DNA of 34,699 bases from a virus. The first letter of the stretch is position 1, and every line of letters starts with the position of its first letter. Shown in pieces: positions 4,499 through 28,709 of this stretch. Location: positions 1 to 34,699 of the IMG/VR virus record IMGVR_UViG_3300032220_001013; one strand, given 5' to 3'. Below the pieces are notes generated by a model. The model was not told the DNA's origin, did not search any database, and worked only from the letters and a program-made list of their open reading frames with translations. The translations under genes and the position numbers were made by a program.

Positions 4499-4947
4499 AA
4501 CGGGACTATAAGTGCGAGGCGCATGGGTTTTTTGAGGCTTGGGAGGCGCAATGCCCCCATGGATGCCTTGATGGGATTATGATTGTCCATTTACAGGCGC
4601 CAAATTACATGTCTGACCGGACCAAGGGCGTTGATGGCACCCTGAAGGGGCTTGCCAAGGACTTTGACATGACGAATTTGAAGTCCACGCGGGAGGGTGA
4701 GCATCAGGAGGGGTATTTGACCCGGAATAATGCCCCACAGCCCAAGGACCAGCCTCCGCAGACCCCGAGTGGGGTTATTTGGGGTGGTGGTGCCGGTTAC
4801 AACATGCAGAATGTGCTTGCCGGCGGGGCTATTAAGTCGGTAAGGGGAGAAAGTGTTGGCTTTAACCCCAAGGATGCTGGTAATCTGTCTGGGCCGAAGC
4901 CGGCGTCGTATATGGCTGACCATGAGGGCTTGAAGATCAAGTCATGA
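4489..4947 (+). CDS. Hypothetical protein with N-terminal zinc-ribbon-like motif, 152 aa
   Basis: Residues 9-26 read C-x2-H then C-x3-C (YKCEAHGFFEAW..QCPHGC), a pattern like the short zinc ribbons of phage and FmdB-type proteins. The rest is glycine-, proline- and polar-rich with no clear fold (NNAPQPKDQPPQTPSG). It sits directly upstream of the portal gene, overlapping it by four bases, so a head-assembly role is likely. The exact function is unknown. Confidence 0.65.
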   Translation: MPIKRDYKCEAHGFFEAWEAQCPHGCLDGIMIVHLQAPNYMSDRTKGVDGTLKGLAKDFDMTNLKSTREGEHQEGYLTRNNAPQPKDQPPQTPSGVIWGGGAGYNMQNVLAGGAIKSVRGESVGFNPKDAGNLSGPKPASYMADHEGLKIKS

Positions 4948-6563
4948 GAATCCCAACCGAAGCCGTTGAACGCGAACAATTCTACCTTGATTTGGTGGAT
5001 AAGTGTTATGTGTCGCGTGACGAGCGGCGCGGGGATTATGCGAGCCTTCGCAGCTATTATTTGTTTGGGTCGGGGCCGCACGACAGTCCGGCGCACTTCA
5101 ACAAGATTTATCCGCACATAGATCAGCTTGTGAGTTTCATGTACTCCGCTGATACGACGCGGTTTTCAATTAGTCTTGGTGCGGCGGTTGATGAGCAGGA
5201 GCACAACAAGGTTCCTGTTCTAACGCATTACCTCAATGACGAGTGGAACAATTCAAATGCCGATCAGGTCTTTGGCATTGGTCTGACTTGGGCGTTCGTT
5301 TACAACTGCGCTTACATCAAATTGGTGCGCCGCAATCGCGGCATTACGCCGTACATGGTGGAGCCTGGGAGCATTGGGGTTCTGCGTGAGGACGTGATGT
5401 ACACGGACCGGCAGGAAGCCTTTGTGCATACTTACTACATCACCCGGTCTGACTTGGCGTCGCGTTTGTATTCGCACCCCAAGCGCAAGGATTTGATGAA
5501 GCGGATTACCGCGCAGAAGTACAAGCCGCAGGAAATCCCTAACGGCGTTGATAAGATCATCATGTCGGCGGTGGACCCGACCATTTACGGTAACGTTAAT
5601 CTGGACTTGTCCGGCACCAATCGCATGAAGCCTGAAGTGGCTGAAGACACGATTGAGATGCGGGAGTTGTATGTTTGGAACGACGAAACCAATGATTATC
5701 AGGTAGTTACCATCGCCGAGCCGGATGTGGTAATTTACGATCGCTCTAATGAGTCGATGTTTATCAAGGGTGAGTTGCCGTTCATTCAGATTTGCCCGAA
5801 CCCGATGCCGGACTATTACTGGGGTCAGTCGGAGGTTTCTCGTTTAGTTTATTTGCAGGACATGCGAAATAAACGAATGGCGGAAATCCTTGATTTGTTG
5901 TCCAAGCAAGTCTCTCCGCCCACGAGTATTATGGGTTTTACGGGCATTTTGGATGAGAAGAACTTTGCGTTGAACCGTCCTGGCGGGTTGTTATCTACGG
6001 ACATGCCCAATGCGAAGGTTGAGCGTTTGGCGCCAAACATTCCGCAGGACTTGTTTAGGGAACTAAATGAAATTGACGCCATGTTTGCAGAAGCGTCCGG
6101 CATATCCAGCGTGTTGTCAGGGCGGGGTGAGAGTGGCGTTCGCTCACAGGGACATGCTTCACAACTCGCGCGCCTGGGGTCGTCCCGCGCGAAGAAGCGT
6201 GCTTTGGTGGTCGAGGATGCCCTCGAAAAGATGGCGACCCTGTACCTGAAAATTATGCAGCAAGACGATGCGACGGTTTTGACCGCAGCGGATGGGTTAC
6301 GGTTTATTCCCGAGCAATTCACCAAAGATTTTGTGGTGAAGGTTGATGCTCACAGCAATTCTCCAATTTTCATGGAGGATTTGCGGTCATTGGCGTTCAA
6401 CTTGTTCAAGGCGCAGGCGATTGACAAAGAAAGTCTGCTTGACTTGTTGGAGCCGCCCATGAAACAGTTGTTGAAGGATAAGCTGAAGAAGGCCGAGGTT
6501 AAGGGTCAGGAACAGGCGCAAGCCCAACCTTCTGCCCCGCCGGCTTTGAAGAAGGTGGTGTGA
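4944..6563 (+). CDS. Portal protein
   Basis: A 539-aa protein at the head vertex through which DNA is packaged and ejected; portals are dodecamers. The assignment rests on length, on position between TerL and scaffold/capsid genes, and on features of podovirus portals. There is a tyrosine-rich N-terminal region (DYASLRSYYLFGSG, HIDQLVSFMYSADT), a central strand-rich part with PFIQICPNPMPDYYWGQSEV, and a helical stem starting RLVYLQDMRNKRMAEILDLL. A region resembling the portal tunnel loop follows (SGISSVLSGRGESGVRSQGHASQLA). The last 50 residues are lysine-rich and probably flexible. It shares ATG/TGA bases with both neighbours. Confidence 0.9.
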   Translation: MRIPTEAVEREQFYLDLVDKCYVSRDERRGDYASLRSYYLFGSGPHDSPAHFNKIYPHIDQLVSFMYSADTTRFSISLGAAVDEQEHNKVPVLTHYLNDEWNNSNADQVFGIGLTWAFVYNCAYIKLVRRNRGITPYMVEPGSIGVLREDVMYTDRQEAFVHTYYITRSDLASRLYSHPKRKDLMKRITAQKYKPQEIPNGVDKIIMSAVDPTIYGNVNLDLSGTNRMKPEVAEDTIEMRELYVWNDETNDYQVVTIAEPDVVIYDRSNESMFIKGELPFIQICPNPMPDYYWGQSEVSRLVYLQDMRNKRMAEILDLLSKQVSPPTSIMGFTGILDEKNFALNRPGGLLSTDMPNAKVERLAPNIPQDLFRELNEIDAMFAEASGISSVLSGRGESGVRSQGHASQLARLGSSRAKKRALVVEDALEKMATLYLKIMQQDDATVLTAADGLRFIPEQFTKDFVVKVDAHSNSPIFMEDLRSLAFNLFKAQAIDKESLLDLLEPPMKQLLKDKLKKAEVKGQEQAQAQPSAPPALKKVV

Positions 6564-6724
6564 TGCAGCAGACTTATACCAGCAGTGGCGACCAGCCTCG
6601 TATGACCCAAAGTGATTTATCTCGCGGTGAGGCGCCGGCGTCTTTGCAATATCGCGTGACTTCCGTCCGCTCTATGGATAACAATCGCTCTATGCGCCCC
6701 ATGGGGCGTGAAGGAAGGAGGTGA
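6563..6724 (+). CDS. Small protein after the portal gene, 53 aa
   Basis: Starts on the last base of the portal stop (TGATG) and ends GREGRR followed by TGA. It is polar and serine/arginine/methionine-rich (RSMDNNRSMRPMGREGRR) and probably unstructured. Its last codons contain the perfect ribosome-binding site of the next, 13-codon frame, so part of its end may be constrained by that site. Function unknown. Confidence 0.65.
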   Translation: MQQTYTSSGDQPRMTQSDLSRGEAPASLQYRVTSVRSMDNNRSMRPMGREGRR

Positions 6725-6728
6725 TTGT

Positions 6729-6770
6729 ATGTACCGTGCGATGCGCAAGGCGCGTAAGACCCGCCGCTAA
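6729..6770 (+). CDS. Tiny basic peptide, 13 aa
   Basis: The frame reads MYRAMRKARKTRR and stops: seven of thirteen residues are Arg or Lys. Upstream at 6715-6725, AAGGAGGTGAT matches the anti-Shine-Dalgarno end of 16S rRNA over eleven bases. The spacing is ideal: seven bases from GGAGG to ATG. Such a site is better than that of most genes here and argues that it is translated. The role is unknown; the charge suggests binding to DNA or RNA. Confidence 0.55.
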   Translation: MYRAMRKARKTRR

Positions 6771-6817
6771 TGCGGAGTTCCAGGGAAACTCACCCTAACC
6801 GGAAAGGAGGTTGTACC

Positions 6818-6853
6818 ATGGCTCGCAAGCGTGGCCGTAAGGCGAAGCGGTAA
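6818..6853 (+). CDS. Tiny basic peptide, 11 aa
   Basis: Begins at ATG 6818 and reads MARKRGRKAKR: seven of eleven residues are basic and none acidic. AAAGGAGG (6803-6810) is seven bases before the ATG. Having two such frames in a row, both of the same composition and both behind near-perfect sites, makes chance unlikely. Possible roles are DNA charge neutralisation in the head or a translated leader; both are inference. Confidence 0.55.
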   Translation: MARKRGRKAKR

Positions 6854-6860
6854 CTAAATG

Positions 6861-6904
6861 ACGGGGGGAACCCGTTATTACCGTTGTGCGCCGGGGGGAC
6901 GCAC
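6861..6904 (+). promoter_or_regulatory. Two small G-loop hairpins
   Basis: ACGGG (6861-6865) pairs with CCCGT (6871-6875), and GTGCG (6886-6890) pairs with CGCAC (6900-6904). Both loops contain GGGGGA- or GGGAA-type runs. They lie in a 129-base gap between the 11-aa frame and the gene at 6983. No T-tract follows closely, so they are not a classic terminator. They could be mRNA stability or processing elements. Confidence 0.35.
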
Positions 6905-6982
6905 TCTGTAAATATATCTCCCCGCTTGATTTTTTATGGACTAATAGACTAACCAACTGTTACGAAGTGTTTGGAGGCGTAA

Positions 6983-7459
6983 ATGGCAGTACCTTCAGAG
7001 CGTATGATGAAGCTGATGGCAGCGGGTCGCGGTGGCGAACCGAATGCCGAGCCTGCGCTTGATGAATTGGTGCCGCCGATGGGCGCTCCTATGATGACCC
7101 CCGAACCGAAGATGGGCAACAAGGAAGCTGCGCTCATCAATGTTGGGCTTGCGCTGGACTTGCTTGAGCAATCGCTGCCGGCGCTTGGGTATGAATCGAA
7201 TGAAGGTCAGAAGGTTATGTCGGTTTTGCGCACCCTTACGGGTATGATGCAGCCGCGTCAGGCCAAGACCAACGAGTTGAAGAACGCAGAAATCCTTCAG
7301 CTTCTCCAATCCTTGCCGCAGGCGGGTGGTGGGACGCCGGAAGGAAGGGCTATGGCGAGCGCTCCGCCTATCCCTGGAATGGCTGGTGGGGCGATGCCGC
7401 CTCCGATGCCGCAGGGCGCACCCCCAATGCCGCCTCCGGGCGGCGCCATGCCTATGTAG
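6983..7459 (+). CDS. Head-region protein with proline/glycine/methionine-rich tail, 158 aa
   Basis: ATG 6983 follows TTGGAGG. Residues about 40-110 are predicted helical (EAALINVGLALDLLEQSLPALG, LKNAEILQLLQSL). The last 45 residues are low-complexity PPP/GG/M (PPIPGMAGGAMPPPMPQG). It lies between the portal and scaffold-like genes, where podoviruses often have internal head or assembly-factor genes. The low-complexity tail may be a flexible linker. No named family recognised. Confidence 0.65.
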   Translation: MAVPSERMMKLMAAGRGGEPNAEPALDELVPPMGAPMMTPEPKMGNKEAALINVGLALDLLEQSLPALGYESNEGQKVMSVLRTLTGMMQPRQAKTNELKNAEILQLLQSLPQAGGGTPEGRAMASAPPIPGMAGGAMPPPMPQGAPPMPPPGGAMPM

Positions 7460-7469: not shown

Positions 7470-7655
7470 ATGGACCTTTTTAAGCCGCGTGGCGCCGCGA
7501 GTGTTCGTCGCCCGACTGACAACAGCCAGCAGAACGGTCAGATTATCAACACGCCGCGTTATGCGACGATGGGTGGTCTTTCCACTGCCGCCAAAATCGG
7601 GACCAAGAACAAGATGGCTATTGTTCCGCCCGGTGATGGCAAGCGCGTAATCTAA
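7470..7655 (+). CDS. Small hypothetical protein, 61 aa
   Basis: ATG 7470 follows AGGAG. The protein (MDLFKPRGAASVRRPTDNSQ...) is basic, polar and probably mostly disordered. It sits in the gap between two head-assembly genes in the same direction. A longer frame opening further upstream overlaps the preceding gene and lacks a ribosome-binding site. Function unknown; likely a minor virion or assembly protein by position. Confidence 0.6.
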   Translation: MDLFKPRGAASVRRPTDNSQQNGQIINTPRYATMGGLSTAAKIGTKNKMAIVPPGDGKRVI

Positions 7656-7672: not shown

Positions 7673-8218
7673 ATGGCTTCGCTTGAAGATTTGACACCAG
7701 ATGCGCGGGATGAGTTGGCTCTCCTCGCGCGTCAACTTGCAGAAAACCCACACACTCGCAAAGAGTTTTTGCGCCTGACAAAGCGGGCTAAGCCCGACAT
7801 TCCTATTCCAGAGTTGGAAATTGAGGATTCTGTCACGCGCCAAACTCAAGCCTCTAATGCCAGGGTTGAGGCGCTTGAGGCACAACTGCGCGAGCGTGAG
7901 GCGATGGACGAATTGTCGCGTCGTCGCAACGCCCTTTTGAAGAAGGGCAAAGTTTCTGATGAATCCGAGATTGAGCAGATCGAAAAGATCATGCTCGAGA
8001 AGGGCATCACTGACCATGAAACCGCAGCGGACTACCACAAGTGGATGCGCGAGCAAGCAGCGCCGACGCCAACTTCTTTCACACGCAATGTGATGGATGT
8101 TACGGCGCGCAGCACGCTTTCGTCCTTTTGGAAGAACCCGCAAGTCGCGGCACGAGATGAGGCGAGCAAGGCTCTGATGGAACTTCGGGGAAAACCCAAC
8201 CGTCCCATTGGACTTTGA
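7673..8218 (+). CDS. Putative scaffolding protein
   Basis: A 181-aa highly charged, mostly helical protein immediately upstream of the major capsid gene, the standard place for scaffold. Residues about 55-110 form a likely coiled coil (ARVEALEAQLREREAMDELS, SEIEQIEKIMLEKG). The C-terminus is basic (ALMELRGKPNRP), the type of end that contacts capsid in other phages. Scaffolds direct procapsid assembly and leave before or during packaging. The start is ATG 7673 after AGGGAAAC. The call is from position and composition, because scaffold sequences are poorly conserved. Confidence 0.7.
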   Translation: MASLEDLTPDARDELALLARQLAENPHTRKEFLRLTKRAKPDIPIPELEIEDSVTRQTQASNARVEALEAQLREREAMDELSRRRNALLKKGKVSDESEIEQIEKIMLEKGITDHETAADYHKWMREQAAPTPTSFTRNVMDVTARSTLSSFWKNPQVAARDEASKALMELRGKPNRPIGL

Positions 8219-8258: not shown

Positions 8259-9269
8259 ATGCCTATCGGTGGTGGTATTCTTCCGGCTACGGGTAGTACG
8301 CAATACACCGAGTTGACTTATGTGACTCGTAGGGCGTTTATCCCGAAGCTGGTTGTTCAAATCTACAACAGCACCCCGCTCATGGCGGCGCTCATTGCCA
8401 ATAGCCAACAGGCTACGGGCGGTGTGTCCTCCGTGACCGTTCCGGTGCAAGGCGCTCAGTTCGTCAACGCCCAATGGTCTGATTACAGCGGCTCCTTTGC
8501 GCAGCCGTCTGTACAGCAGGGCGCGTACAACGCTGAGTTCAACCTGAAACTGATGATCGCGCCCGTGCCGTTCCTCGGCATGGAAGGTGCGGTCCAGCAG
8601 GATCACGCCATTATCCCGCTCATCGAGGCTCGCATGAACGATGCGACCAACGTGATGATGGATGGTATGGCTACCGCGCTGTACACCAACACGACCAACA
8701 CGCAGCAGTTCACGGGCCTGCCCGCCGCTGTTGACGATGGCACCGGCACCGCGACCTACGGCAACATCAATCGCTCGACCTACACTTGGTGGAAGTCGAA
8801 GCAGTATGCCGCCGGTTCCGTGAACCCGACCCGTCAGAACATCCTTCAGTACATCTCCGGTACGGTGAAGAACGGCGCTGAAGTGCCGACCTTTGGCGTG
8901 TGCGGCTTTGGTACTTGGACGCTGCTGGCGCAGGACTACGTGGGTCAAGAACAGTACGTCATTACGCCGGGTTCCGGCTTTGACGGCGACCCGAATGGTC
9001 CGCAGTCCGGCTTCCGCGCCCTTATGGTCGCTGGCGTGCCGATTTACCCCGACCCGTACTGCCCAGAAGGCACGGTGTACTTCCTGAACACTAACTACCT
9101 GTCGCTGTATATTCATGACCAGGGTTCGTTCGTGTTCACGGGCTTTGAGTCCACCCTGCCGAATTGGCAGATTGGTTATGTCGGTGCCGTTCTCATGATC
9201 GCGGAATTGGTGAATACCAAGCCCAAGGCCATGACGAAGGTCACCGGCTATAACAGCTTGAGCATCTGA
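8259..9269 (+). CDS. Major capsid protein (HK97-fold type)
   Basis: A 336-aa protein after the scaffold-like gene. The N-terminal part (YTELTYVTRRAFIPKLVVQI, NSTPLMAALIANSQ) and the later GMATALYTN, GFRALMVAGVPIYPDPYCP and SLYIHDQGSFVF segments match the layout of phage coat proteins with an HK97 fold. Length suits a small head. Codons here end mostly in C or G (CTG, ACC, AAC), unlike the T- and G-rich terminase genes, as expected for the most abundant virion protein. The leader 8219-8258 carries AGGGAAAC and a GGAG site. Confidence 0.9.
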   Translation: MPIGGGILPATGSTQYTELTYVTRRAFIPKLVVQIYNSTPLMAALIANSQQATGGVSSVTVPVQGAQFVNAQWSDYSGSFAQPSVQQGAYNAEFNLKLMIAPVPFLGMEGAVQQDHAIIPLIEARMNDATNVMMDGMATALYTNTTNTQQFTGLPAAVDDGTGTATYGNINRSTYTWWKSKQYAAGSVNPTRQNILQYISGTVKNGAEVPTFGVCGFGTWTLLAQDYVGQEQYVITPGSGFDGDPNGPQSGFRALMVAGVPIYPDPYCPEGTVYFLNTNYLSLYIHDQGSFVFTGFESTLPNWQIGYVGAVLMIAELVNTKPKAMTKVTGYNSLSI

Positions 9270-14753: not shown

Positions 14754-15075
14754 TACCTATACCTGGGTCATTGAGGCGATGGATTGCGTGCCTCAAGAGG
14801 ACGGCCAGACCGATGTGGTGATCACCGTGCATTGGCGCCAGAACGCCACCGATGGCACATACAACGCCACTGTGTATGGCACTGTGGGTCTGACCTATAC
14901 GCCGGGTTCCCCGTTCACGCCGTATGCTGACTTGACGCAGGATCAAGTCATTGGCTGGGTCCAAGGTGCGCTTGGCTTCGATCAATGCGCGCAACTGGCC
15001 GCGAACCTTGATCAGCAGATTGCCAATCAGGTGAACCCGCCCGTGGTGACGCCGCCGCTGCCTTGGGTTGCTTGA
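14746..15075 (+). CDS. Hypothetical structural protein, 109 aa
   Basis: ATG 14746. A beta-rich N-terminal half (YTWVIEAMDCVPQEDGQTDV, VITVHWRQNATDGTYNATVY) is followed by a helical part (DQVIGWVQGALGFDQCAQLA) and a proline-rich end (NPPVVTPPLPWV). Proteins with this layout are frequent in phage tail regions, but I recall no experimental function. It lies between the fibre gene and a small membrane protein gene. Confidence 0.7.
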   Translation: MANTYTWVIEAMDCVPQEDGQTDVVITVHWRQNATDGTYNATVYGTVGLTYTPGSPFTPYADLTQDQVIGWVQGALGFDQCAQLAANLDQQIANQVNPPVVTPPLPWVA

Positions 15076-15092
15076 TTTTTTTGGGGGATCGC

Positions 15093-15311
15093 ATGGCGAT
15101 GGAAATTGATCCGCGAGATTTCGGGCGACTAGAAGCTGAAGTTCAGCAGTTGCAAGATAAGGTTGCGGAAATCCATAACGACATGAAAGCCGTGCGTTCA
15201 GTTTTGGATGCGGCGGGTGGGAGTTGGCGCACTCTGGTTGGTGTTGCAACGGCATCCAGCGCCATAACGGCGTTTTTGGTAAAACTCATGCCATCGTTTG
15301 CTTGGAGATAA
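15093..15311 (+). CDS. Small coiled-coil plus membrane protein (XhlA-like)
   Basis: I chose ATG 15093 behind TTGGGGGAT, giving 72 aa. Residues 8-40 form a heptad-like coiled coil (FGRLEAEVQQLQDKVAEIHN). A single hydrophobic segment follows at about 48-66 (TLVGVATASSAITAFLVKLM). This two-part layout is that of XhlA/hemolysin-type lysis accessory proteins. It is far from the main lysis genes at 24.7-26.2 kb, so a tail-linked or membrane-anchor role is also possible. Confidence 0.6.
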   Translation: MAMEIDPRDFGRLEAEVQQLQDKVAEIHNDMKAVRSVLDAAGGSWRTLVGVATASSAITAFLVKLMPSFAWR

Positions 15312-15313
15312 CC

Positions 15314-15643
15314 ATGGGTATCAACGCCTTCACCAAGATGGGTAATACAGTGGCGTTTACCGCCTCCACAACTGCGCCCAGCCCGGTGCAGGCGTTATCC
15401 ACCAGCCTAGGTGGCAACCAGTACCGGATTATTAACGCCGGCACAGTCACGGTGTTTCTGGGGTACGGGTCAACATCAGCGGAGGCGAGCAACAATGCCG
15501 TGGTGGTTTCCTCGTCCCAGGCGGCTTTTCCCTTGCTTCCCGGCACTGACGAAATCCTTACCTTTGTGCCCAACGCTTACTTCACGGGCATTACGTCCAG
15601 CGGCACCGCGTCCATTTACATCACTCCCGGCGACGGGGTGTGA
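15314..15643 (+). CDS. Beta-rich structural protein, 109 aa, paralogue of the gene at 24386
   Basis: ATG 15314 after GGAGATAACC. The protein (FTKMGNTVAFTASTTAPSPV, NQYRIINAGTVTVFLGYGS, LLPGTDEILTFVPNAYFTG, ending YITPGDGV) is nearly all strand and uncharged. It shares with the protein at 24386-24733 the order MGNT, NQY, V-x-VG/GYG, PGT, VP.A.F, and the ending (V/I)TPG(E/D)G. Likely a small virion surface component, such as fibre cap or decoration. Confidence 0.65.
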   Translation: MGINAFTKMGNTVAFTASTTAPSPVQALSTSLGGNQYRIINAGTVTVFLGYGSTSAEASNNAVVVSSSQAAFPLLPGTDEILTFVPNAYFTGITSSGTASIYITPGDGV

Positions 15644-15646
15644 CCT

Positions 15647-16231
15647 ATGTTAAAGACCGTCAGCAGCGTCACCAATGCGATAGGCGCCCTTAACTACAAG
15701 GGCACATGGAATGCCTTGACCAATAGCCCGACGTTGACTTCGGGGGTTGGCACCAAGGGCGATTACTATGTGGTGAGCACTGCCGGTAGCACTAACCTTG
15801 ATGGCACTACCCTGTGGGGTGTGGGCGATTGGGCCGTGTTCAACGGCTCCATCTGGCAAAAGGTGGACGGTGGCGATACAACCACTGTGACCACGCTTAC
15901 TGTTACCGGGTTGACCGGTTACATGTACGCCAACAACACCTCGCCCGTTACCGCTTCAACCACGATCCCTAACGCCGGCCTTGCCAACAGCACGACGACC
16001 TTGGGAAACGCGACCCTTACCCTTGGTTCGACCACGACCAGTGTTGGGAACCTTACCCTCAACAATGTAAACGTGGCGTCCGGTAACGTTACATCGAACA
16101 ATGTCAACTTGACCGGCACGACTGCGGCCACCGCAACCTTTGCGACTGACAGTTTGCCTTTGGTTCCAGAGGGTTACATCACCATCCAGATAGGGGGTGT
16201 CAACAAAAAGATACCCTATTACGCGGTGTGA
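15647..16231 (+). CDS. Tail fibre-type protein, 194 aa
   Basis: Residues about 12-75 (LNYKGTWNALTNSPTLTSGV, GTKGDYYVVSTAGSTNLDG, WGVGDWAVFNGSIWQKVDGG) are a module that recurs in phage tail fibres and is rich in aromatic residues, probably sugar-facing. It is followed by a repetitive Asn/Thr/Leu shaft (TTLGNATLTLGSTTTSVGNL). The C-terminal end (YITIQIGGVNKKIPYY) is a compact strand. It lies downstream of the main fibre gene and may be a second receptor-binding fibre. Confidence 0.75.
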   Translation: MLKTVSSVTNAIGALNYKGTWNALTNSPTLTSGVGTKGDYYVVSTAGSTNLDGTTLWGVGDWAVFNGSIWQKVDGGDTTTVTTLTVTGLTGYMYANNTSPVTASTTIPNAGLANSTTTLGNATLTLGSTTTSVGNLTLNNVNVASGNVTSNNVNLTGTTAATATFATDSLPLVPEGYITIQIGGVNKKIPYYAV

Positions 16232-16234
16232 GCC

Positions 16235-16576
16235 ATGGATTTCGACACCCTGAGTATTGTGAAGTTTGGGGACAAGGACAGTCTCGGGGTTTTTCTATTC
16301 GAGAATGGGCGTCAGCACCAAGTTTTTCGTGAGTCATTTTTTGACCTAAACATCACTGTTCCGGCTTTTCCGTTGATTGATGCCGACCCTGACAACTTGG
16401 ATGATTGGTTGTTAGCGCACCAAACGGAGCATCAGGCGTTTGCCACACTTTTAGGTTTAGATAATCCCATAGATTTGCTAGATGTTGATTGGAATGATGA
16501 GGAAGATTTCTATGAGTGGCTTTCGGGTCATTTAGCCATTCATCAGCAAATCGCTACAGCTTTGGGGATAACGTAA
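16235..16576 (+). CDS. Acidic hypothetical protein, 113 aa
   Basis: ATG 16235, three bases after the fibre-type gene. It is strongly acidic with many Asp and Leu (DADPDNLDDWLLAHQTEHQA, LLDVDWNDEEDFYEWLSGHL). The two segments DDWLLAHQTEHQAFATLLGL and DFYEWLSGHLAIHQQIATAL look like an internal duplication of one helical unit (W-L--H---HQ--AT-LG). Function unknown; a virion or assembly partner by position. Confidence 0.65.
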   Translation: MDFDTLSIVKFGDKDSLGVFLFENGRQHQVFRESFFDLNITVPAFPLIDADPDNLDDWLLAHQTEHQAFATLLGLDNPIDLLDVDWNDEEDFYEWLSGHLAIHQQIATALGIT

Positions 16577-17131
16577 ATGGTGGCGGAAAATCCAGTTTTG
16601 AAGCCCCTGCCGGCCACTACGGGTCTTGGCGAAAAGGCTGCGCCCGCTGACGTAATGGGCGCCATGAACCGCGAGCGTGGTGGCGCTCCGACTACGACGA
16701 GCAATTCCGTGGATATTTTGCGCGAAGGGTTAATGGAGCAACTTGGCGATGAGCAACAAGTCCAGCAAGCGATTGCGGAGTTGGATAAGTTGTCGAGCGT
16801 CGGATTGAGCGGTTTAGTGCAAATTGGCAATACCGTTTTTCTTGTGAACAAGTTCGATAGCAACCGGAAGATGTTGCCTGTGGGCACTGCGGAAGTGCAC
16901 ATTTTTACTAATGAATCTTTGCAGGCCTTGGCGCAACGTTTGTTGGTTGGCGCTAACACTTTCCGTCAACTTGGGTATCGGCGCATTATTAGCTTCAGTA
17001 CCGACCCAGGCATCACGCGCGTTTTACAAGGTTTGCAACAACAAACGGGCGCTCAACTTCGTGTGACGCAAGATGTGCAAAACATGGGGGGTAACATGAC
17101 GCCCGTTTATCGCATTGAGGTGACACTCTAA
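16577..17131 (+). CDS. Hypothetical virion-associated protein, 184 aa
   Basis: Starts right after the preceding stop (TAAATG). The N-terminal 45 residues are probably disordered. Residues about 50-184 alternate helices and strands (LMEQLGDEQQVQQAIAELDK, VGLSGLVQIGNTVFLVN, VGTAEVHIFTNESLQALAQR, LGYRRIISFSTDP). The second half looks distantly like a GNAT-type alpha/beta fold, including an RRIISFS strand and a V-x-HIFT strand, but I see no clear acetyl-CoA loop. It leads the group of ejection-protein-like genes. Confidence 0.65.
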   Translation: MVAENPVLKPLPATTGLGEKAAPADVMGAMNRERGGAPTTTSNSVDILREGLMEQLGDEQQVQQAIAELDKLSSVGLSGLVQIGNTVFLVNKFDSNRKMLPVGTAEVHIFTNESLQALAQRLLVGANTFRQLGYRRIISFSTDPGITRVLQGLQQQTGAQLRVTQDVQNMGGNMTPVYRIEVTL

Positions 17132-18654
17132 TGGCGCTCATGGGCAAAAAACGTAGTCCCGGCGGTGGTGGTGGTCGTAGTGGTGGCGGTAAAGGAGCAA
17201 CCGTTTTAGTTGCTGTGGTAGCCGTTGCGGCAACTATAGTTGCAACACCTTTGGCTGGTGCCGCCGTTGGCTCAACGTTGCTTGGTTCAACTGCTGCTGC
17301 ATCTGTGGCAACCGGAGCCTTGTCGGGTGCGGCTGCTGGCGCTGCTGCCGGGGCTACGGCGGCGAGTTTGTCAGGGGGCAATTTGGGTGAAAGCGCGCTG
17401 CAAGGTGCTGCTGTGGGTGGCGTTGGTGGTGCGATTGGTGGTGGCGTGGGGGCTGCTATGCCGGCGGGTACTCCGGCGGCAGTGACGCAAGCGGCATCCG
17501 GCGCGGCGCGTGGTGCTGCTACATCTGCAATAACGGGTCAGGACGTTGGCACTGGCGCGTTGGCTGGCGGTGTCGCGGGCGGTTTAGCGGGTGGTGCTGG
17601 CTCTGCGTTGCAAGGTACTGTGTCACCGGAAGTTTTGGGTGCAGTAACGGGGGGCCTTTCAGGTGCCGGCGCAAGTGCTGTGAAGGGTGGCGATGTTGCG
17701 CAAGGTGCCTTGATGGGGGCGGCGAGTGGCGCAGCGGGGGCGGCGTTACAGCCGGTGCAGCAAGCCATAGGTTCTGCTGTTGGTGCGCCTTCTGCCCAGT
17801 CGGGCACTGGGGGATCGCCTGCACCATTTGCGCAAGAGGTGGTGCCTGGGGGCGAAGGGCCGGCGCGGCCATTGCAGCCGGGCGAGGAGTTACTGTCGGG
17901 CAACGTTGGTATTGTTGGCGTGCCCCAAGGTTACGGCGAAGCGCAGGGCCTTCCGAGTGTAAATCTTCCTCAGTTGCCTCAGTATGATCCTAACGAACCT
18001 CTGCCCATGCCGGAGCCTAGTGGGCAAGTCATTGAAGTTCAAAAGGAATTTGATCTTGCCGCCGGGCCAGACGTAGAGGTGGTGCCAGACACTCCTCAGT
18101 TTGCGTTGGCAGATGTGTACCAGCAAATCCCTGACATTCTGCGGTTTGTTGAGGCTGACATGGCGCGCACTCAACGGCGTGCTGCTGGCCAACCGTCAGC
18201 GCCTTCAACCGCTTCGCTCGGCTTTGGTGGTGGTGGGATGAGCGCGCAGGATCGTCAGATTGCCAATTTGATTGGTTTTTCGGCGGAAGCGCCGACTTCT
18301 CAGACGACATACCTTGGCGGTACTGGTGAAGCGCCGGGCCGGGCACGCGGCGGTGAAACCGGGGTTGGAGCCGCTGGTGAGGGTACCGGCGTTTCGGGCA
18401 CTGGCGAAGGCACTGGTGGTGGTAGGACGCCGACTTATGCAACTGCGTCGGGTACCTCGGGTTATCGTTCTCAACTGCCGGGTCTTTTGACCGGGTTCTC
18501 GCCTAGCAGTGGCGCGCTTGGCGGTTTTGCTAGTGGCGACCCTGAAGGATTTGCGCCTGCGCAGTTTGACGGTGGCGAAAGAAAGTTGAAACCCAAGCGC
18601 CCGGTGTGGAATATAGCGTCGTTGCGCGTCAAAGAAGATGAAGGGGTTGCCTGA
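17131..18654 (+). CDS. Gly/Ala-rich internal (ejection) protein, 507 aa
   Basis: After a basic start (MGKKRSPGGGGGRSGGGKGA) come about 200 residues of almost pure Gly/Ala/Val/Thr with glycine-zipper spacing (LSGAAAGAAAGATAASLSGG). Such segments can insert in membranes and are typical of podovirus ejection proteins that pass into the cell envelope. Residues 238-256 carry the motif VPGGEGPARPLQPGEELLS, which recurs in the gene at 19718. The C-terminal third is Gly/Thr-rich and disordered, ending in a basic KLKPKRPVWN segment. A channel or envelope role is inference. Confidence 0.7.
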   Translation: MALMGKKRSPGGGGGRSGGGKGATVLVAVVAVAATIVATPLAGAAVGSTLLGSTAAASVATGALSGAAAGAAAGATAASLSGGNLGESALQGAAVGGVGGAIGGGVGAAMPAGTPAAVTQAASGAARGAATSAITGQDVGTGALAGGVAGGLAGGAGSALQGTVSPEVLGAVTGGLSGAGASAVKGGDVAQGALMGAASGAAGAALQPVQQAIGSAVGAPSAQSGTGGSPAPFAQEVVPGGEGPARPLQPGEELLSGNVGIVGVPQGYGEAQGLPSVNLPQLPQYDPNEPLPMPEPSGQVIEVQKEFDLAAGPDVEVVPDTPQFALADVYQQIPDILRFVEADMARTQRRAAGQPSAPSTASLGFGGGGMSAQDRQIANLIGFSAEAPTSQTTYLGGTGEAPGRARGGETGVGAAGEGTGVSGTGEGTGGGRTPTYATASGTSGYRSQLPGLLTGFSPSSGALGGFASGDPEGFAPAQFDGGERKLKPKRPVWNIASLRVKEDEGVA

Positions 18655-19718
18655 TGCCTAGTCTTGCCAAGGTTTTGAAGACCGACGTTATGGCCGACCT
18701 TGATATGAGGGCGTTGGCGCAAGTGTTGCGTGCGCAGGGGCGTGGCCGTGACACGGTGTTGGCGCACATTACGCCGGCTGAAGCGCGTAAACTGAAGCGG
18801 GAAGGCGGCGCTGGCACGATCAATCCGGCGACGGGCTTGCCGGAGTTTCAGGAAGATTTTTCTTTTGCTGATTATGCGGAAGCCCCGGCGGCAGCCTTTG
18901 AACCGGAGAGTCAGTATCAGGCTTATGAAAGTCCTGTTTACAGCAGCGGTGAGTTCACGCAGTCGTTGGTTCCTGGCAGTGTTGGTGAGGCGACAGCGCA
19001 GCCCGGTGTAGAATACTTGTCGGCTCCTGCTGCGTTGCCAACCACCGCACGAGAAGTTTTTGACCGAGGTATTCCTGTTCCGCCCGTGCAACCTACTGGC
19101 GGGGCAGCGGAGGGTGCGGCCTTTTTGCAGAGTTTACGCGGCGAACAAATCCCGTTGGAGCAAATGCAACAGCCCGGCGGCGGTGGTTTTTTTGATCGCC
19201 TTGGTACTTCGCTGGAAAAGCAGTTGTCAGACCCGGCAACACTCGCGCGTTTGGGGTTAGGGCTTGGCGTCGGCGGTCTTGGCTTGTTGCAGCAGCAGCG
19301 TGCTACAGGCGCGGCGCGTCAGGCGAGGCGTGAAACCGCCAATATCGGCGCTCCGTACCGTGCGCAAGGGCAAGAACTGATCGCGCAGGCTCGCGCCGGT
19401 GAATTGTCCCCCGCTTCCATGCAGGCGTATCAGGCCGCACAGGCGCAGATTGCGCAGCAAACGGCGCGTCAGGGTGGTGTCGGTGCGGCGCAGGGCGCTG
19501 CAACGCTTGAACGGCTACGGGCGCAACTGCTTCAGAACCAGTATAACCTAGGGCTGAATGTCGCTAACATTGGCGACAGGTATTTGGCCGGCGCCATCCA
19601 AACTGGTCAGCAGGCAAACCAACAGCTTATGACCGCGACCAATCAATTCTATTCAACCTTGGGTAGCATGTTGTCTGGTCCCACGGGTCAAGCTGTGGCA
19701 ACCGCTGTGAGGGCATAA
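18654..19718 (+). CDS. Putative internal (ejection) protein, 354 aa
   Basis: Overlaps its neighbours at TGATG and TAATG. An N-terminal charged helix pair (DLDMRALAQVLRAQGRGRDT, HITPAEARKLKREGG) leads into a disordered middle with a degenerate copy of the shared ejection motif at residues 106-123 (VPGSVGEATAQPGVEYLS). A hydrophobic glycine-zipper stretch follows (LARLGLGLGVGGLGLL), then a long Ala/Gln-rich helical region to the end. This layout resembles internal proteins released with phage DNA. No enzymatic motif seen. Confidence 0.65.
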   Translation: MPSLAKVLKTDVMADLDMRALAQVLRAQGRGRDTVLAHITPAEARKLKREGGAGTINPATGLPEFQEDFSFADYAEAPAAAFEPESQYQAYESPVYSSGEFTQSLVPGSVGEATAQPGVEYLSAPAALPTTAREVFDRGIPVPPVQPTGGAAEGAAFLQSLRGEQIPLEQMQQPGGGGFFDRLGTSLEKQLSDPATLARLGLGLGVGGLGLLQQQRATGAARQARRETANIGAPYRAQGQELIAQARAGELSPASMQAYQAAQAQIAQQTARQGGVGAAQGAATLERLRAQLLQNQYNLGLNVANIGDRYLAGAIQTGQQANQQLMTATNQFYSTLGSMLSGPTGQAVATAVRA

Positions 19719-21706
19719 TGAGCGAAGCCATCGTTGCAGACATCCGCCGCATAGCGCAGGAAGAAGGCGTTGACCCTGACCTCGCCGTAAGGGTGGCAAA
19801 GCAGGAGAGTGGCTTCAGGCAAGACGCCACAAGTCGTGCTGGTGCGCGCGGTATCATGCAACTGATGCCGGATACTGCCAAAGAACTCGGCGTTGACCTT
19901 AATGATCCAATGCAAAACATTCGCGGTGGTGTGCGTTATCTCGGTCAACAGCAGCGCGCGTTTGGTTCTCCCGATTTGGCTTTGGCTGCGTACAATGCAG
20001 GGCCGGGGCGGGTGCGCGAGTATTTGCGCACTGGTCGTCAGTTGCCGCAAGAAACCAAAAATTACGTCAGCGCCCTTTCCGGCGCCGGTATATCTCCTGA
20101 TATTATGTCGGCTGAATACAGAACTGCCGCTGGCGACATTATTGTTCCCGGTGGCGAAGGACCACGCCGTACCGCGCCGGGCGAAGAACTTCTGTCGGCA
20201 GACGTGACTCCCACTACAGGGTTTACCCAGGCCGAGTTAGCGTCATTCAGCCCAGAAACGCGCGCGATTATTCAGCGTGGTGAAAGTCTGCGTGGTGACT
20301 TGGCGAAGGCCACAGAGGAAATTGCGCGACTAGCCGGCCAAAAAGAGGAAACTCTAACCGCTGGCGCGGCAAGGGCTGCAAGGCAATCTGCCGAAACGCA
20401 ACGCCGCGCGGTTGAGGAGTACGAAGCCAACAGGAAAATTGCTCCTGAGTTTGTGCCGACTCAAGAAACCGCTGGCGATATTGCGTCACTATTTGGTTTG
20501 ATTGGCGTTTTTGGAACGTTGGTTGGCGGTGGTGGCAAGCAGAACGCGGTTGCTGCAATGAACGCCATGACCGGCATGATGAGCGGTTGGCGGCAAGGTC
20601 GCCAAGACCTTTACAACCGTGAGCGGCAAATCTTTGACACTAACGTTCGGCAGTTGGAAGCGCGCAACGCGGAATTGCGCCGTAGCCTCGAAAGCAACTT
20701 GAAGTTAGCGCAAACCAATCTGGATGCGGCTTTGGCTAACATTCGGTCCGATGCGGCACGGCTTGGGTCTTCTATTTTGCTTGAACAGGCCCGTGCCGGC
20801 AATTTGCAGGGCTTGGTGCAATCCAACCAAGAGTTGCAGAAAATGCAATTTGAGGTGGAAAAGTATCGCCGCCAACAAACTGAACTTGTCGCAAGGCAAG
20901 AAGAAGCGGAGCGGCGCAGGCGTTTGGCGTCTGCTGGGCCTATGGCCGATCAAATTATGGAGCGTCAATCGCCCGAAGCGGCGCAACGCACTCGTGAACT
21001 ATTGTCTCGCACTGATTTGGGTGCGCGTGGTCGTCAAAATCTGGAAGCGTCTTATGCGGCCCTTGAGGGCAGTGAGCGTGTGGCGCGTAGTGTTTCACAA
21101 AACCAAGACGCAGTAGATGCGTTGGCATCTGCAATGAACCGTGTGCGAGCCGATCAGGTGGCGGGCTTGTTGCAACGGTTTTTTAATGGTCAATCTAATG
21201 AACAACAACTTTTCAATGGCCTTGATCGCGTTATTGACCAAGCCGGATTATCTGGCGACGTAGCATCACGCGCAAAAGTCATTCAAAAAGAATTGTTCTC
21301 GTTGGCGTTGTCGGATGCGCAAGCAACAGGTCGCCCAACGGTCTTCCTTGAACGTGCCTTGTCCGGCTTTTATGCGCAAAACTTGCGGCCAGAAACCTTG
21401 ATTGAACTGATCAAGGACCGCGCCAAAGAAGCGGTAACGCGCATCCCCAACGCTACATTGAGGCCGGATACCTTGACCAATTACCGTCAAGACTTCTCTC
21501 TGTTGGCGACGCCAAATGCCAACGAGTTTATGCGGCTGCACCCTGAACCTGAGAGTCGGCGTCGCAGCCGTACAACTCAACCGGCAGCGCCACCGGCAGA
21601 CCAGAGAAGCAGAGGATTGCAGGCCATAGAGCGCGCTCGCCAAGAATTAGGGCCGAATGCTTCGGATGATGATGTGGTGGCACGCGCAAGGGAACTACTG
21701 AGATGA
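19718..21706 (+). CDS. Ejection protein with N-terminal lytic transglycosylase domain
   Basis: A 662-aa protein. Residues 1-125 are a soluble lytic transglycosylase (SLT) domain: catalytic E30 in KQESGF, the GARGIMQLMP loop (42-51), and AYNAGPGRV (91-99). It would cut peptidoglycan strands so DNA can enter. Residues 143-160 hold the motif VPGGEGPRRTAPGEELLS shared with the gene at 17131. A glycine-rich hydrophobic patch near 255-285 and a long coiled-coil region (LEARNAELRRSLESNLKLAQ) follow. This resembles other virion-carried muralytic internal proteins in podoviruses. Confidence 0.9.
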   Translation: MSEAIVADIRRIAQEEGVDPDLAVRVAKQESGFRQDATSRAGARGIMQLMPDTAKELGVDLNDPMQNIRGGVRYLGQQQRAFGSPDLALAAYNAGPGRVREYLRTGRQLPQETKNYVSALSGAGISPDIMSAEYRTAAGDIIVPGGEGPRRTAPGEELLSADVTPTTGFTQAELASFSPETRAIIQRGESLRGDLAKATEEIARLAGQKEETLTAGAARAARQSAETQRRAVEEYEANRKIAPEFVPTQETAGDIASLFGLIGVFGTLVGGGGKQNAVAAMNAMTGMMSGWRQGRQDLYNRERQIFDTNVRQLEARNAELRRSLESNLKLAQTNLDAALANIRSDAARLGSSILLEQARAGNLQGLVQSNQELQKMQFEVEKYRRQQTELVARQEEAERRRRLASAGPMADQIMERQSPEAAQRTRELLSRTDLGARGRQNLEASYAALEGSERVARSVSQNQDAVDALASAMNRVRADQVAGLLQRFFNGQSNEQQLFNGLDRVIDQAGLSGDVASRAKVIQKELFSLALSDAQATGRPTVFLERALSGFYAQNLRPETLIELIKDRAKEAVTRIPNATLRPDTLTNYRQDFSLLATPNANEFMRLHPEPESRRRSRTTQPAAPPADQRSRGLQAIERARQELGPNASDDDVVARARELLR

Positions 21707-23175
21707 GCGACGCACTTCTTGATCGAGTTCTGGCGCCCGAATCAAGCCCCGACGCTTTGCTTGATAGGGTGATGGCACCAGAACCCGCGCAAGTGACGCA
21801 GCCTCAAGCACGCGGTCCTAGGTCTGTGCGCGAAGCCGTAAGCCCTGGTTTACGGATGCCGTCGCAAGCAACGCCAGAGTTTTACAAAGGCGCAACCGCT
21901 GGTTTCTTGGGCCAGGGCGGAGACATTATTGAGTTTGGCCGATACTCTGTGCCAGAGTTTTTTGGTGCACGACCAACACCAGCGCAGGAACGGCGCACTT
22001 ATCTTCCAACAACTGAAGATGTTACCCAGCGGCTTTATGGCGAACGTCCGTCAGGCGAGGCGGGGCAGTATCGCGGCTTGGGTGAAATGGTTGGCGGCGT
22101 TGTCGGTTTGCCAATCAAGGCTGGCGGCGCATTGTTGACCGGCTTGGGGCGGCGCGCTCAAGAAACATTAAGGCCAGGGCGTGTTGTTGAACAATTTGGC
22201 GAGCAAGCACCACAAACTTCACGTGCAGTTGAAGGGGTTGCCGGCGCCGCAAGGCCCCCTCAAGCGCCGCGCGTTACTGGTACTGTAAGTGATGTTGGCG
22301 AAGCTATTGAAAGAGGCGTTGGCGAGCGGCTTTCAAAACTGCGTGCCGAGAGAACGGACCAAGCCAATCAAGCCTTTTCGCGTTACTTCCGTGAGGGCGC
22401 TAAAGTCGAAGATGACATTATCCGTGACTATGCAACGGCACGTGATGACATTCTGAGGCAGAGCGGCGGGTCGATGGCACCGGATATGCAAGCCGTGTTT
22501 GACCAGAGTGTCAGTCGTTTGCAGCCCCGCGTTGTGAGAACGGCTGACGGTCAAGAACAGTTCATTAAGCCCAACATCGAAGCCATCGAACTAGAACGTC
22601 GCAGGCTGCGTGATATTGCGTTTGGTTATGGTGAAGAACGTTATTCGGCGGCGCAAAAGCAATTTGCTAGCGAGTTGGCGGATATGTTTGAGGGCATTAT
22701 CACAAATCGCGTTAAGTCAGGTGGCGACGCCATTCGCATTTACCGCGAGGTTTCCGAACCCATCAACCGCTATGCAACTGCGTTGGGCCAAAGGGTGACG
22801 CAACGGGCGGGTGAGTATTTGCCCGAAGTTCCAAAGATGGACCCTGCTCAGTTGCCGGGCCAATTCTTCAAAAGCCGTCGCTCAGTCCAAGAACTGAAAG
22901 AGTTCTCTGGGAACCCAGCGTTGGTTGAATCGGCTGCGCGCCGGCATGTGGGCAATGAAATTTCGGGCATGACGAAGCCGGAGCAAGTTCGGACGTATTT
23001 GCGGAACAATGAAGATTGGCTTCAAGAGGTTCCGGCAGTGCGGCAGGAGTTGAGCCAACTCGCGGATCGCTTGCAGCGTGGCGAAACAACACGTTCTTTA
23101 GCAAGGCTAGGGGCGGTGGGGCTTGGCGCTGGCGCTGGCGCAACAGGAATATCTCGTTTGTTAGGAGGACGATAA
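21703..23175 (+). CDS. Putative internal (ejection) protein with N-terminal tandem motif, 490 aa
   Basis: Opens with two copies of DALLDRV(L/M)APE at residues 3-13 and 17-27. A Pro/Arg-rich middle follows, then long charged helices (SKLRAERTDQANQAFSRYFR, RRLRDIAFGYGEERYSAAQK). The end is hydrophobic (SLARLGAVGLGAGAGATGIS), a possible membrane segment. It is the last large gene of the ejection-protein group. It shares ATGA with the transglycosylase gene and TAATG with the next gene. Role inferred from context. Confidence 0.65.
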   Translation: MSDALLDRVLAPESSPDALLDRVMAPEPAQVTQPQARGPRSVREAVSPGLRMPSQATPEFYKGATAGFLGQGGDIIEFGRYSVPEFFGARPTPAQERRTYLPTTEDVTQRLYGERPSGEAGQYRGLGEMVGGVVGLPIKAGGALLTGLGRRAQETLRPGRVVEQFGEQAPQTSRAVEGVAGAARPPQAPRVTGTVSDVGEAIERGVGERLSKLRAERTDQANQAFSRYFREGAKVEDDIIRDYATARDDILRQSGGSMAPDMQAVFDQSVSRLQPRVVRTADGQEQFIKPNIEAIELERRRLRDIAFGYGEERYSAAQKQFASELADMFEGIITNRVKSGGDAIRIYREVSEPINRYATALGQRVTQRAGEYLPEVPKMDPAQLPGQFFKSRRSVQELKEFSGNPALVESAARRHVGNEISGMTKPEQVRTYLRNNEDWLQEVPAVRQELSQLADRLQRGETTRSLARLGAVGLGAGAGATGISRLLGGR

Positions 23176-23327
23176 TGCCTTTGAAACTCGGCGGAAGCCA
23201 AGCGACCATCAGCAAGAACATCCGCAAGATGATGCGTGAGGGGTACAAACAATCTCAAGCTGTTGCGGCATCTTTGTCTTCAGCCAGAAAATCTAAAAAA
23301 CCGGCACGCCGCGCTGGTAGGAGCTAA
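23175..23327 (+). CDS. Small basic phage protein, 50 aa
   Basis: Starts on TAATG with an AGGAGG site 14 bases earlier. The protein ([20 protein letters not shown]...[20 protein letters not shown]) belongs to a recurring class of short phage proteins with an S-x-K-x-I-x2-L/M-x2-EGY-x-Q-x-QAVA pattern and a basic tail ([12 protein letters not shown]). Function unknown. Its last 35 bases are overlapped by the oppositely oriented HNH gene. Confidence 0.75.
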
Positions 23328-23736
23328 TGCGGCCATGCTCACGCATATGGAGTACGCGCAAGTTTTCCAACCTATTGTCGGTTTTGATGCGATTTATGTG
23401 ATCAACGTGTTCCCATTTTTCCAGCTTGCGCCCCAAGTGCTGCTCCATAATCCATCGGTGTTCAAAATAGCGAACGCCATTGACAGTAATGCGGCGATAT
23501 TTATCGCAGTTATTTACGCGCTGATGTTTGGAATAACACTCTTGCGTGCAAAACTTTTTGGTTTTCTCTTTGGATTTCGGGCAGCGGAAAACCGTTTGGC
23601 AACTCAAGCACTTAATGGAGCCTTTTTGATATTCAGCGTCAACTCGACACCGTTGAGAGCAAAATTTCGCTTTGTATTTGCGATATGTTTTGACTTCAAA
23701 AGAAGATGTGCATTGTTGGCAAATCAACGTAATCAT
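23293..23736 (-). CDS. HNH homing-type endonuclease with two zinc fingers
   Basis: A 147-aa protein read against the surrounding late genes. Two zinc-finger-like blocks are seen: C6/C9 with C26/C30, and C43/C46 with C63/C67. An HNH nuclease follows: [20 protein letters not shown] with H110, D112, H113, then N121 in [12 protein letters not shown]. This is the layout of free-standing phage HNH homing endonucleases. It is more AT-rich than its neighbours and overlaps the end of the 50-aa gene, fitting insertion between two ordinary late genes. No intron boundary is apparent. Confidence 0.9.
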
Positions 23737-23770
23737 GCGGCACTTGTAGCCGCAGAATCAGGCGGTTGCA

Positions 23771-23977
23771 ATGGCTAAGAAGCCCAAAGGCCTTAACGCT
23801 GACCTTGAAGCGGCTGTGGCACAGCTTCTCAAGGAGGTTATGGCTGACCCGACGGCATCCCTGACCGACAAGACCAAAGTGATTGACCGCGCCATTAACC
23901 TCGAAAAGATCAAACAGAAGATTTCTGATGATGAATGGGGTTCGGGCTTCACGAATACTGATGACGAAGAAGCGTAA
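23771..23977 (+). CDS. Small acidic helical protein, 68 aa
   Basis: ATG 23771. The protein reads ADLEAAVAQLLKEVMADPTA, SLTDKTKVIDRAINLEKIKQ and a D/E-rich end WGSGF....DEEA. Short proteins of this form are common in podovirus genomes between virion and lysis genes. I know of no proven function. On composition it is soluble and helical, possibly dimeric. It resumes the rightward operon after the HNH insertion. Confidence 0.7.
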   Translation: MAKKPKGLNADLEAAVAQLLKEVMADPTASLTDKTKVIDRAINLEKIKQKISDDEWGSGFTNTDDEEA

Positions 23978-24017
23978 ATGTTGTATGGCTTACGTTCCAA
24001 AATAGGGAAACATAGCC

Positions 24018-24239
24018 ATGGATTTGACGCTGCGTGTAATCAGGATCGCGTTCGAGGTGCTTTCAGAGCGGGTCTTTTCTATTCTGGCAATGGTCATGAC
24101 TTTTGCGCTAAGTTGTTGGGCAATGTCAGAACCGACTTACGAGCGCCTCGGCATGGCCGGGTTCTTTGCAGTCGCCGTGTTTATTCCGAGTTTGGCTCGT
24201 GAAAGGAAGCGTAATGGAAAAGATGGTGAAACCGATTAG
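24018..24239 (+). CDS. Two-helix membrane protein, 73 aa
   Basis: ATG 24018 after AGGGAAACATAGCC. Two hydrophobic segments at about residues 19-38 (VFSILAMVMTFALSCWAMSE) and 45-58 (GMAGFFAVAVFIPSLA) are separated by a short polar turn. The end is basic (RERKRNGKDG). The layout fits a small holin or a membrane accessory protein, and the lysis genes begin about 500 bases downstream. A holin role is inference, because a different holin-type gene lies at 25725. Confidence 0.7.
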   Translation: MDLTLRVIRIAFEVLSERVFSILAMVMTFALSCWAMSEPTYERLGMAGFFAVAVFIPSLARERKRNGKDGETD

Positions 24240-24393
24240 GCCGCAAATCCCGCAAGACACTTACGGTCTGGGCGGCGGTTACTTCACTCCCGGCAAGGTG
24301 CCGGCGGGCGGCTTCAGCAGCATGTGGTGCTTTGGCGGGTCGCATGACCCCAAGAAGTCCCCGACCACGAAGCCGGAGAAAAACCGTGGCTAA
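24214..24393 (+). CDS. Small Gly/Pro-rich hypothetical protein, 59 aa
   Basis: ATG 24214 sits behind AAAGGAAG and inside the end of the membrane-protein gene. The protein (PIRPQIPQDTYGLGGGYFTP, AGGFSSMWCFGGSHDPKKSP) is rich in Gly, Pro and aromatic residues and probably has little secondary structure. It overlaps the next gene's GTG start by eight bases. Function unknown. Confidence 0.65.
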   Translation: MEKMVKPIRPQIPQDTYGLGGGYFTPGKVPAGGFSSMWCFGGSHDPKKSPTTKPEKNRG

Positions 24394-25257: not shown

Positions 25258-25258
25258 A

Positions 25259-25723: not shown

Positions 25724-25724
25724 G

Positions 25725-28706: not shown

Positions 28707-28709
28707 AGG

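Follow-up and report, generated by a model that had tools for sequence, protein, structure and literature searches.

In microviruses, the J/VP8 proteins are about 25–40 aa in size. They are described as arginine-lysine-rich proteins that are important for genome packaging and lie on the capsid interior; the 38-aa VP8 of SpV4 has a C-terminus that is buried in the capsid protein and ends in an aromatic residue (PMC11281519). The T4 internal proteins IPI, IPII and IPIII (8.5–20.4 kDa) are reported to be highly basic and to occur in many copies in the head, and have been credited with charge balancing (PMC6071114). In adenovirus, the 19-residue arginine-rich peptide mu (core protein X) is given as 100–300 copies per virion and as helping to condense the dsDNA together with other core proteins (PMC7998265). 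The operator of T4 gene 32 is described as a pseudoknot in the 5′ leader before the gene for a nucleic-acid-binding protein (PMC535899), and the Downstream-peptide motif (RF01704) as a structured 5′ UTR that precedes conserved short ORFs belonging to no known family (PMC2864571). As for size, the GMSC catalogue of small proteins is stated to reach down to 9 aa (PMC11364881).

Here we describe two genes, of 13 and 11 codons, that encode the basic peptides P1 and P2 next to a phage portal gene. The peptides share with viral basic core peptides a small size and a strongly basic composition with no acidic excess, traits for which the frames were in part preselected (K+R ≥45%). Like the T4 internal proteins they are small, highly basic phage proteins, but at 13 and 11 aa they fall outside the size range given for the T4 proteins (PMC6071114), and their packaging in the head is putative. 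The J/VP8 proteins belong to ssDNA phages. P1 and P2 are 9–17 aa long across the loci, nearly always end in K/R and have no tail like that described for SpV4 VP8 (PMC11281519). Adenovirus mu is described as a protein of an animal virus that a protease releases from a longer precursor (PMC7998265), whereas P1 and P2 each have their own start, stop and Shine-Dalgarno (SD) sequence. Since size, processing and tail features differ wherever they were compared, we filed P1 and P2 under none of these classes. Comparison of the T4 gene 32 operator (PMC535899) with the pseudoknot RE1 described below involves a different RNA and a different protein, and RE1 lies in a sister clade, not in the DNA analyzed here. 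The Downstream-peptide ORFs are described as typically 17–100 aa long and cyanobacterial (PMC2864571); the P1/P2 region gave no Rfam match. In a limited, non-exhaustive literature search, no title or abstract opening described these peptides.

The window, by which we mean the whole stretch of DNA that was analyzed, is a 34.7-kb virus record (34,699 nt; IMG/VR IMGVR_UViG_3300032220_001013) encoding an SU10-type adaptor and portal, a terminase, a major head protein, a transglycosylase-bearing protein and a RecE-like exonuclease. The features listed here from portal to capsid gene are on the + strand. The SU10-type portal gene (4944..6563; Pfam SU10_portal, 5.3e-14; PHROG portal, 8.8e-12) was used as the anchor of the locus. 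Its stop overlaps (TGATG) the start of a small reading frame, gene X (6563..6724; 53 aa), which contains a GDQPR motif, has RR at the C-terminus and is begun at an upstream GTG in the ORF list. A DQP[RKN] motif near the portal stop was found in 154 of 220 related regions, as against 0/220 on the antisense strand. Gene X is followed by P1, MYRAMRKARKTRR (6729..6770; ATG at 6729, stop ending at 6770), in which 7 of 13 residues are K/R, and by P2, MARKRGRKAKR (6818..6853; ATG at 6818, stop ending at 6853), in which 7 of 11 are. Their SD sequences are AAGGAGGTGAT (6715..6725), which overlaps the end of X and is held in part by its last codons, and AAGGAGGT (6804..6811); in both, a GGAGG core lies 7 bases 5′ of the ATG. 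Just 3′ of the P2 stop is a short putative hairpin, ACGGG...CCCGT (6861..6875), which recurs in relatives, followed by an H-type pseudoknot, RE2 (6886..6924), and directly thereafter by a −35-like hexamer, TTGATT (6926..6931), which is often TTGACA in relatives. The next gene, a Met/Pro-rich reading frame of 158 aa (6983..7459), opens the following head group; a homologue was present in 6 of 8 loci tested, and in one of the bin-derived contigs, L314, it stands at another place. A 60-aa protein (MDLFKPRG..RRPTDN.., 7473-7655), encoded between two pre-capsid genes, was found in 7/8 loci at 37–68% identity. The gene of 181 aa that follows (7673..8218) had no match in Pfam and PHROG searches and would be scaffold-like, judging by its place and composition; it precedes the major capsid gene (8259..9269; PHROG major head protein, 1.3e-37).

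To estimate how often such frames arise by chance, 200 dinucleotide-preserving shuffles of the whole window were scanned on both strands for ORFs of 8–16 aa with K+R ≥50% and an SD match of at least 6 bases. The shuffled windows contained a mean of 0.01 such frames (maximum 1), and none when an ATG and an SD match of at least 7 bases were demanded, whereas in the real window P1 and P2, and no other frames, passed. The two basic micro-frames behind strong ribosome-binding sites that the preliminary description had reported are therefore borne out by the sequence, shuffles almost never matching them. Its further observation, that the first site (6715-6725) pairs with the 16S tail over eleven bases, is correct for the window but does not extend to the lineage: the full eleven-base match was present in only 18 of the 189 MY/MAYK-form first peptides, and in 90 of them no match longer than AGGAG was seen. 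Among 100 loci in which both could be recognized, the P1 start lay between 1 base inside and 19 bases past the X stop. Elsewhere in the window (26572-26646), a basic frame, MRKPGSKGAPTAAAFRKSARTAKR, stands behind AAGGAG and could be the 3′ part of a longer ORF; a simple scan revealed no counterpart in two annotated metagenomic phages, L081 and L082.

Relatives were collected with the portal protein as query, which gave 79 IMG/VR loci, the two annotated metagenomic phages, four more distant contigs and nine contigs in bacterial genome bins, and with two peptide-pattern scans, which gave at least 221 loci. From 287 loci with a portal end, 220 distinct downstream regions were retained, duplicates over 400 nt and regions with too little sequence 3′ of the portal being left out. 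Neither these 220 regions nor the portal clusters given below include the nine bin contigs. Frames in relatives were required to have an ATG, a length of 8–20 aa and K+R ≥45%. Such basic ORFs were found 3′ of the portal gene in 219 of the 220 regions, the pattern-found matches listed included, as against 0/220 on the antisense strand and 0/220 in equal stretches inside the portal gene. There were two ORFs in 171 regions, three in 39, one in nine and none in one; in this last region (L030) a 270-aa ORF separates the portal gene from the peptide genes, and P1 and two copies of P2 follow further downstream. Because the pattern scans select carriers, the portal-found subset gives the fair figure: with the window included, 65 of 66 regions had basic ORFs, and 54 of the portal-found regions combined an MY/MAYK-form P1 with a P2-class frame. 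Dereplication of 179 portals longer than 420 aa at 85% identity yielded 47 clusters, 40 to 100% identical to the window portal, each with at least one basic frame. Among the matches listed, the portal was present in 209 of 221 pattern-found loci; in 11 of the 12 others the peptide lies within ~510 bases of one end of the stretch, which explains why no portal was seen. In L264 (2728-3450), P2 and the next head gene adjoin an inverted adaptor gene rather than the portal, possibly owing to a rearrangement or a chimeric assembly.

The conserved start, stop and charge that the preliminary description had proposed to look for in related genomes were thus found, and its view of the frames as real micropeptides is upheld by the conservation of start, stop and composition together with synonymous drift. 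It had also predicted that gene callers would miss them, as is the case in the two annotated relatives, where both genes are absent from the annotation and CDSs are drawn on the opposite strand. The hypothetical CDSs annotated antisense to the peptide genes there (L081:25683-25943, MW202825; L082:4740-5038, MW202753) are probably spurious. Relatives with lost frames had been named as the finding that would count against the peptides, and a mild form of this did occur among the bin contigs, the frames being otherwise kept. Eight of the nine contigs had readable regions (L313 ends too early to judge) and six carried strongly basic peptides; L312 has just a weakly basic P1-like peptide of 20 aa, and L317 has no P1, P2 or RE2, though its portal, X and capsid genes are present. 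These two cases indicate that the set can be lost and is not universally needed. In L317 (5653-5885), TTGACA stands directly 3′ of X. The bins of L309–L317 are named after beta- and alphaproteobacteria, Legionella, Paludibacterium, Balneolaceae, Patescibacteria, Saccharibacteria and Lentisphaerae, a mixture such that the bins do not tell the host.

Searches of the phage collection with portal, capsid and adaptor proteins revealed no cultured member; the lineage is known almost only from environmental DNA. No ATG-started basic pair was found in five other phages, namely SU10 and phiEco32 (first 30 kb of each), BUCT555, a Bradyrhizobium phage and Mx8 (15000-32000), where the basic frames were TTG-started and scattered, apart from a single ATG frame with 42% K/R. 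The peptides look like markers of one phage lineage, and the gene order of the collected loci establishes, as far as genome comparison can, that they belong to its portal/head module.

Selection was assessed with Nei-Gojobori dN/dS on 88 distinct 13-codon P1 sequences, which encode 42 peptides, and 89 distinct C-terminal stretches of the P2 class, many of them pattern-found; this class takes in every basic frame outside the MY/MAYK form, among them a few P1 variants. P1 had an in-frame dN/dS of 0.205, and the last eight codons of the P2 class one of 0.383; one or two bases off frame the ratio was 1.63–1.70, rows with stops having been dropped (51 and 30 rows kept for P1, 91 and 8 for P2). As the pattern-found rows fix some codons, the calculation was repeated on the portal-found subset, giving 0.244 (13 codons, 12 distinct) and 0.474 (14 codons, 17 distinct) for P1, 0.471 (40 distinct) for P2 and 1.22–1.78 off frame (4 to 38 distinct rows). 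Identity at the first, second and third codon positions was 0.77/0.79/0.50 for P1 and 0.64/0.66/0.41 for P2, the third varying most. A column-permutation test was uninformative, because it keeps codon-position conservation, and only the contrast between in-frame and off-frame values was used. Lysine and arginine are exchanged at P1 positions 3, 6, 7 and 10, where most of the codons seen need at least two base changes. The codon statistics demonstrate, within these alignments, selection on P1 and P2 at the amino-acid level with K and R interchangeable; with conservation in relatives settling their gene status, the two frames are almost certainly true genes.

Aspartate and glutamate are absent from all 189 P1 sequences. 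Mean net charge is 7.4 for P1 (range 6 to 8) and ~7.0 for P2 (6 to 9, last 13 residues), a level that is partly selected because of the K+R threshold. The last residue is K/R in 88/88 distinct 13-codon P1 and 108/112 distinct P2-class sequences. The main forms of P1 are MYKxxKRGRKTRR and MYKSVKRSRRSRRK, and those of P2 are MARKxRKGRKxRK, MARRGRKGRK and MRRKGRKARR; frames range from 9 to 17 codons, some starts being ambiguous. In the 39 regions with three frames, P1 is followed by two more basic frames, which were two P2 copies in those inspected. L078 and L305 have P2 and another basic peptide that ends in RY, and L316 (3997-4470), whose portal is 43% identical, carries four small basic ORFs in succession 3′ of that gene (12, 19, 32 and 18–29 aa). 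In the window, P1 and P2 use the same codons as the portal and capsid genes, none of them rare; the one CGG in P2 is present in the portal gene and absent from the capsid gene.

In a sister clade of the window, an H-type pseudoknot, RE1 (GGGTRTGGCTGC...CCC...GTGGCC), is situated directly 5′ of the P2 ribosome-binding site (for example L034:2621-2668, L310:5966-6013 and L315:6171-6218). The 75 distinct sequences of the alignment (A2) were collected with a regular expression in which part of both stems is fixed, and the structure was derived from the alignment by eye; the invariant pairs are therefore uninformative. Pairing was found in 95.0% of cells, as against 85.1% after shuffling (0/500 as high), and 97 cells held double changes, as against 21.8 (0/500). 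Of the five measures, two were weaker: the pairs with double changes numbered 5, as against 3.1 (16/500 shuffles as high), and for further pair types 7/500 shuffles were as high. Slid versions of the structure were at most 62.8% paired. In L088 and L095, which lie outside the collecting motif, stem 2 is rewritten with its pairing kept. Of the P1–P2 spacers, 46/91 with a TGGCT motif beat 20 shuffles of themselves, as against 1/50 without it, which indicates that the clade of the window has no detectable 5′ pseudoknot. A candidate at 6775-6795 of the window, plausible by eye, was dropped on the same ground. No element like RE1 was seen before P1. Rfam searches were negative for the window up to E = 1 and, in 8 relatives up to E = 5, yielded just two hits, a tRNA and a PhotoRC-I below threshold, each in L315 and off P2. 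RE1 was also considered, and rejected, as a host riboswitch: model R1 matched one genome out of 185 in the class that includes G001, in a search whose stricter filters lose weak matches, and that match was a phage contig. In 3/3 genomes holding phage contigs, R1 matched one copy each, on the phage contig.

The 3′ element, RE2, pairs 6886-6890 with 6900-6904 (stem 1) and 6892-6899 with 6917-6924 (stem 2), and its loop 3 (6905-6916) is A/U-rich, as is typical in relatives. Its stacking score in the window was −26.6, as against a shuffle mean of −14.6. Among 135 distinct regions, from which RY-ending peptides and regions with N or too short had been excluded, 102 beat all 12 of their own dinucleotide shuffles, and the mean by this simple stacking score was −25.2, as against −15.4 shuffled. 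The stems vary in sequence yet pair (GTGCG/CGCAC, CTTCCG/CGGAAG, CGACA/TGTCG). Plain hairpins were seen by eye at the place of RE2 in L312, L314 and L315; these replacements, and the loss of RE2 together with the peptides in L317, suggest a role as or near a transcript end. The hexamer TTGA[CT][AT] follows RE2 in 177 of 215 regions, as against 29.2 expected from base shuffles; a sigma-70 promoter scan of the window called none. A promoter and terminator around P2 in L314 and L315 had been noted by eye, but the scan called neither, and gene order was used in the argument below instead. Past RE2 in L042, L046 and L047, the near-palindrome TTTGTAAGTGGTTACAAA or a close variant stands right after TTGACA and looks like a candidate operator of the following head operon.

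As to function, we favor, with slightly less than an even chance in our estimate, the view that P1 and P2 bind phage nucleic acid, most likely the DNA in or entering the head. Short polycations would be expected to bind nucleic acid, and the linkage to the head module favors DNA. The two genes close the terminase–portal group and their products have a net charge of ~+7; translation would closely follow that of X, so that the peptides would be made alongside head proteins and, as unfolded polycations, may bind DNA as charge-balancing or DNA-guiding core peptides. RE2 would mark or protect the 3′ end of the transcript, and RE1, in the clade that has it, may set or self-limit translation of P2. 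The frames remain basic across their variation in sequence, length and copy number, which fits an electrostatic role. Against a role with DNA in the head, conservation of a GRK core and of the MY at the start of P1 points to something beyond charge alone, L317 and L312 do without typical peptides, and the adjoining structured RNA equally fits an RNA target. The general view of tailed phages, moreover, is that a motor packs their DNA and that no such peptides take part. A narrower version, in which protamine-like peptides of ~10–15 residues, among the smallest structural proteins with separate genes, are packed with or guide the genome and in part of the lineage a pseudoknot operator restrains translation of one of them, is tentative and somewhat less probable. 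The pseudoknots make RNA binding the main rival: minimal arginine-rich motifs would bind the adjoining pseudoknots and control their own translation or the transcript end. The covarying RE1 right before P2 (75 distinct sequences) and RE2 after it are placed as this would require, L314 and L315 keep RE1 with P2 though the genes around P2 differ, and T4 gp32 is described as repressing its own translation via a 5′ leader pseudoknot (PMC535899). However, a 5′ pseudoknot is undetectable in the clade of the window, which is among the motif-less spacers of which 1/50 beats shuffles, no such element precedes P1, and self-regulation would still require a primary function; we consider this reading somewhat unlikely, though a serious competitor.

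That the peptides are assembly factors, binding portal, scaffold or terminase and steering head assembly, would account for their position always 3′ of this portal where both are visible (L264 excepted) and for the recurring GRK/RK spacing in P2 and MYK..KR in P1; the interchange of K and R and the variable lengths and copy number argue the other way, and we regard it as unlikely. The preliminary description had also raised translated regulatory leaders, that is, translation of the short frames controlling the scaffold and capsid genes by attenuation or coupling. Short frames, strong SDs and nearby RNA structure do have the look of a leader, and the P1 start near the X stop fits coupling with X. 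The set closes a gene group, however, with a −35-like hexamer before the next gene in 177/215 regions, a position that makes a leader peptide unlikely; in L314, other genes occupying over 1 kb separate P2 from the next head gene, and a different gene follows P2 in L315 (the stretch ends ~0.5 kb past P2). A stalling leader is likewise disfavored by the common codons in the window, and selection acts on amino acids, so that the leader role now appears highly improbable. Another reading would make the structured RNA between portal and scaffold the functional element and the frames incidental. Although two pseudoknot types show pairing-preserving changes, third codon positions vary most, in-frame dN/dS is far below off-frame, SD matches and stops are kept, and Rfam has no match there; an RNA acting without its peptides must be counted among the most improbable of these explanations. 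Single windows often contain short frames behind purine-rich stretches, but chance or an annotation artefact is refuted by conservation, the shuffles, dN/dS and the 47-cluster result, and its probability is negligible. On genomic grounds we would rank a role with DNA in the head first and RNA binding second; the peptides are short enough for direct synthesis and testing.

Judging from its genomes, a large group of tailed phages usually has two or three genes of ~10–15 codons for basic peptides beside the portal gene. Genes of 10–13 codons are normally discarded by annotation, and here two families of them, supported by more than 200 distinct regions in a phage head module, are under clear protein-level selection. 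Should RNA be their target, the peptides would count as some of the smallest genetically encoded RNA-binding regulators, with ready-made pseudoknot targets beside them. If they are in the virion, something akin to protamine would exist in tailed phages, and the lower bound on structural gene size would fall to about ten codons. If they are packed with the genome or guide it, dsDNA tailed phages would have a protein-assisted step of DNA packing, and it would have been overlooked because its genes lie below the usual limits of gene calling.
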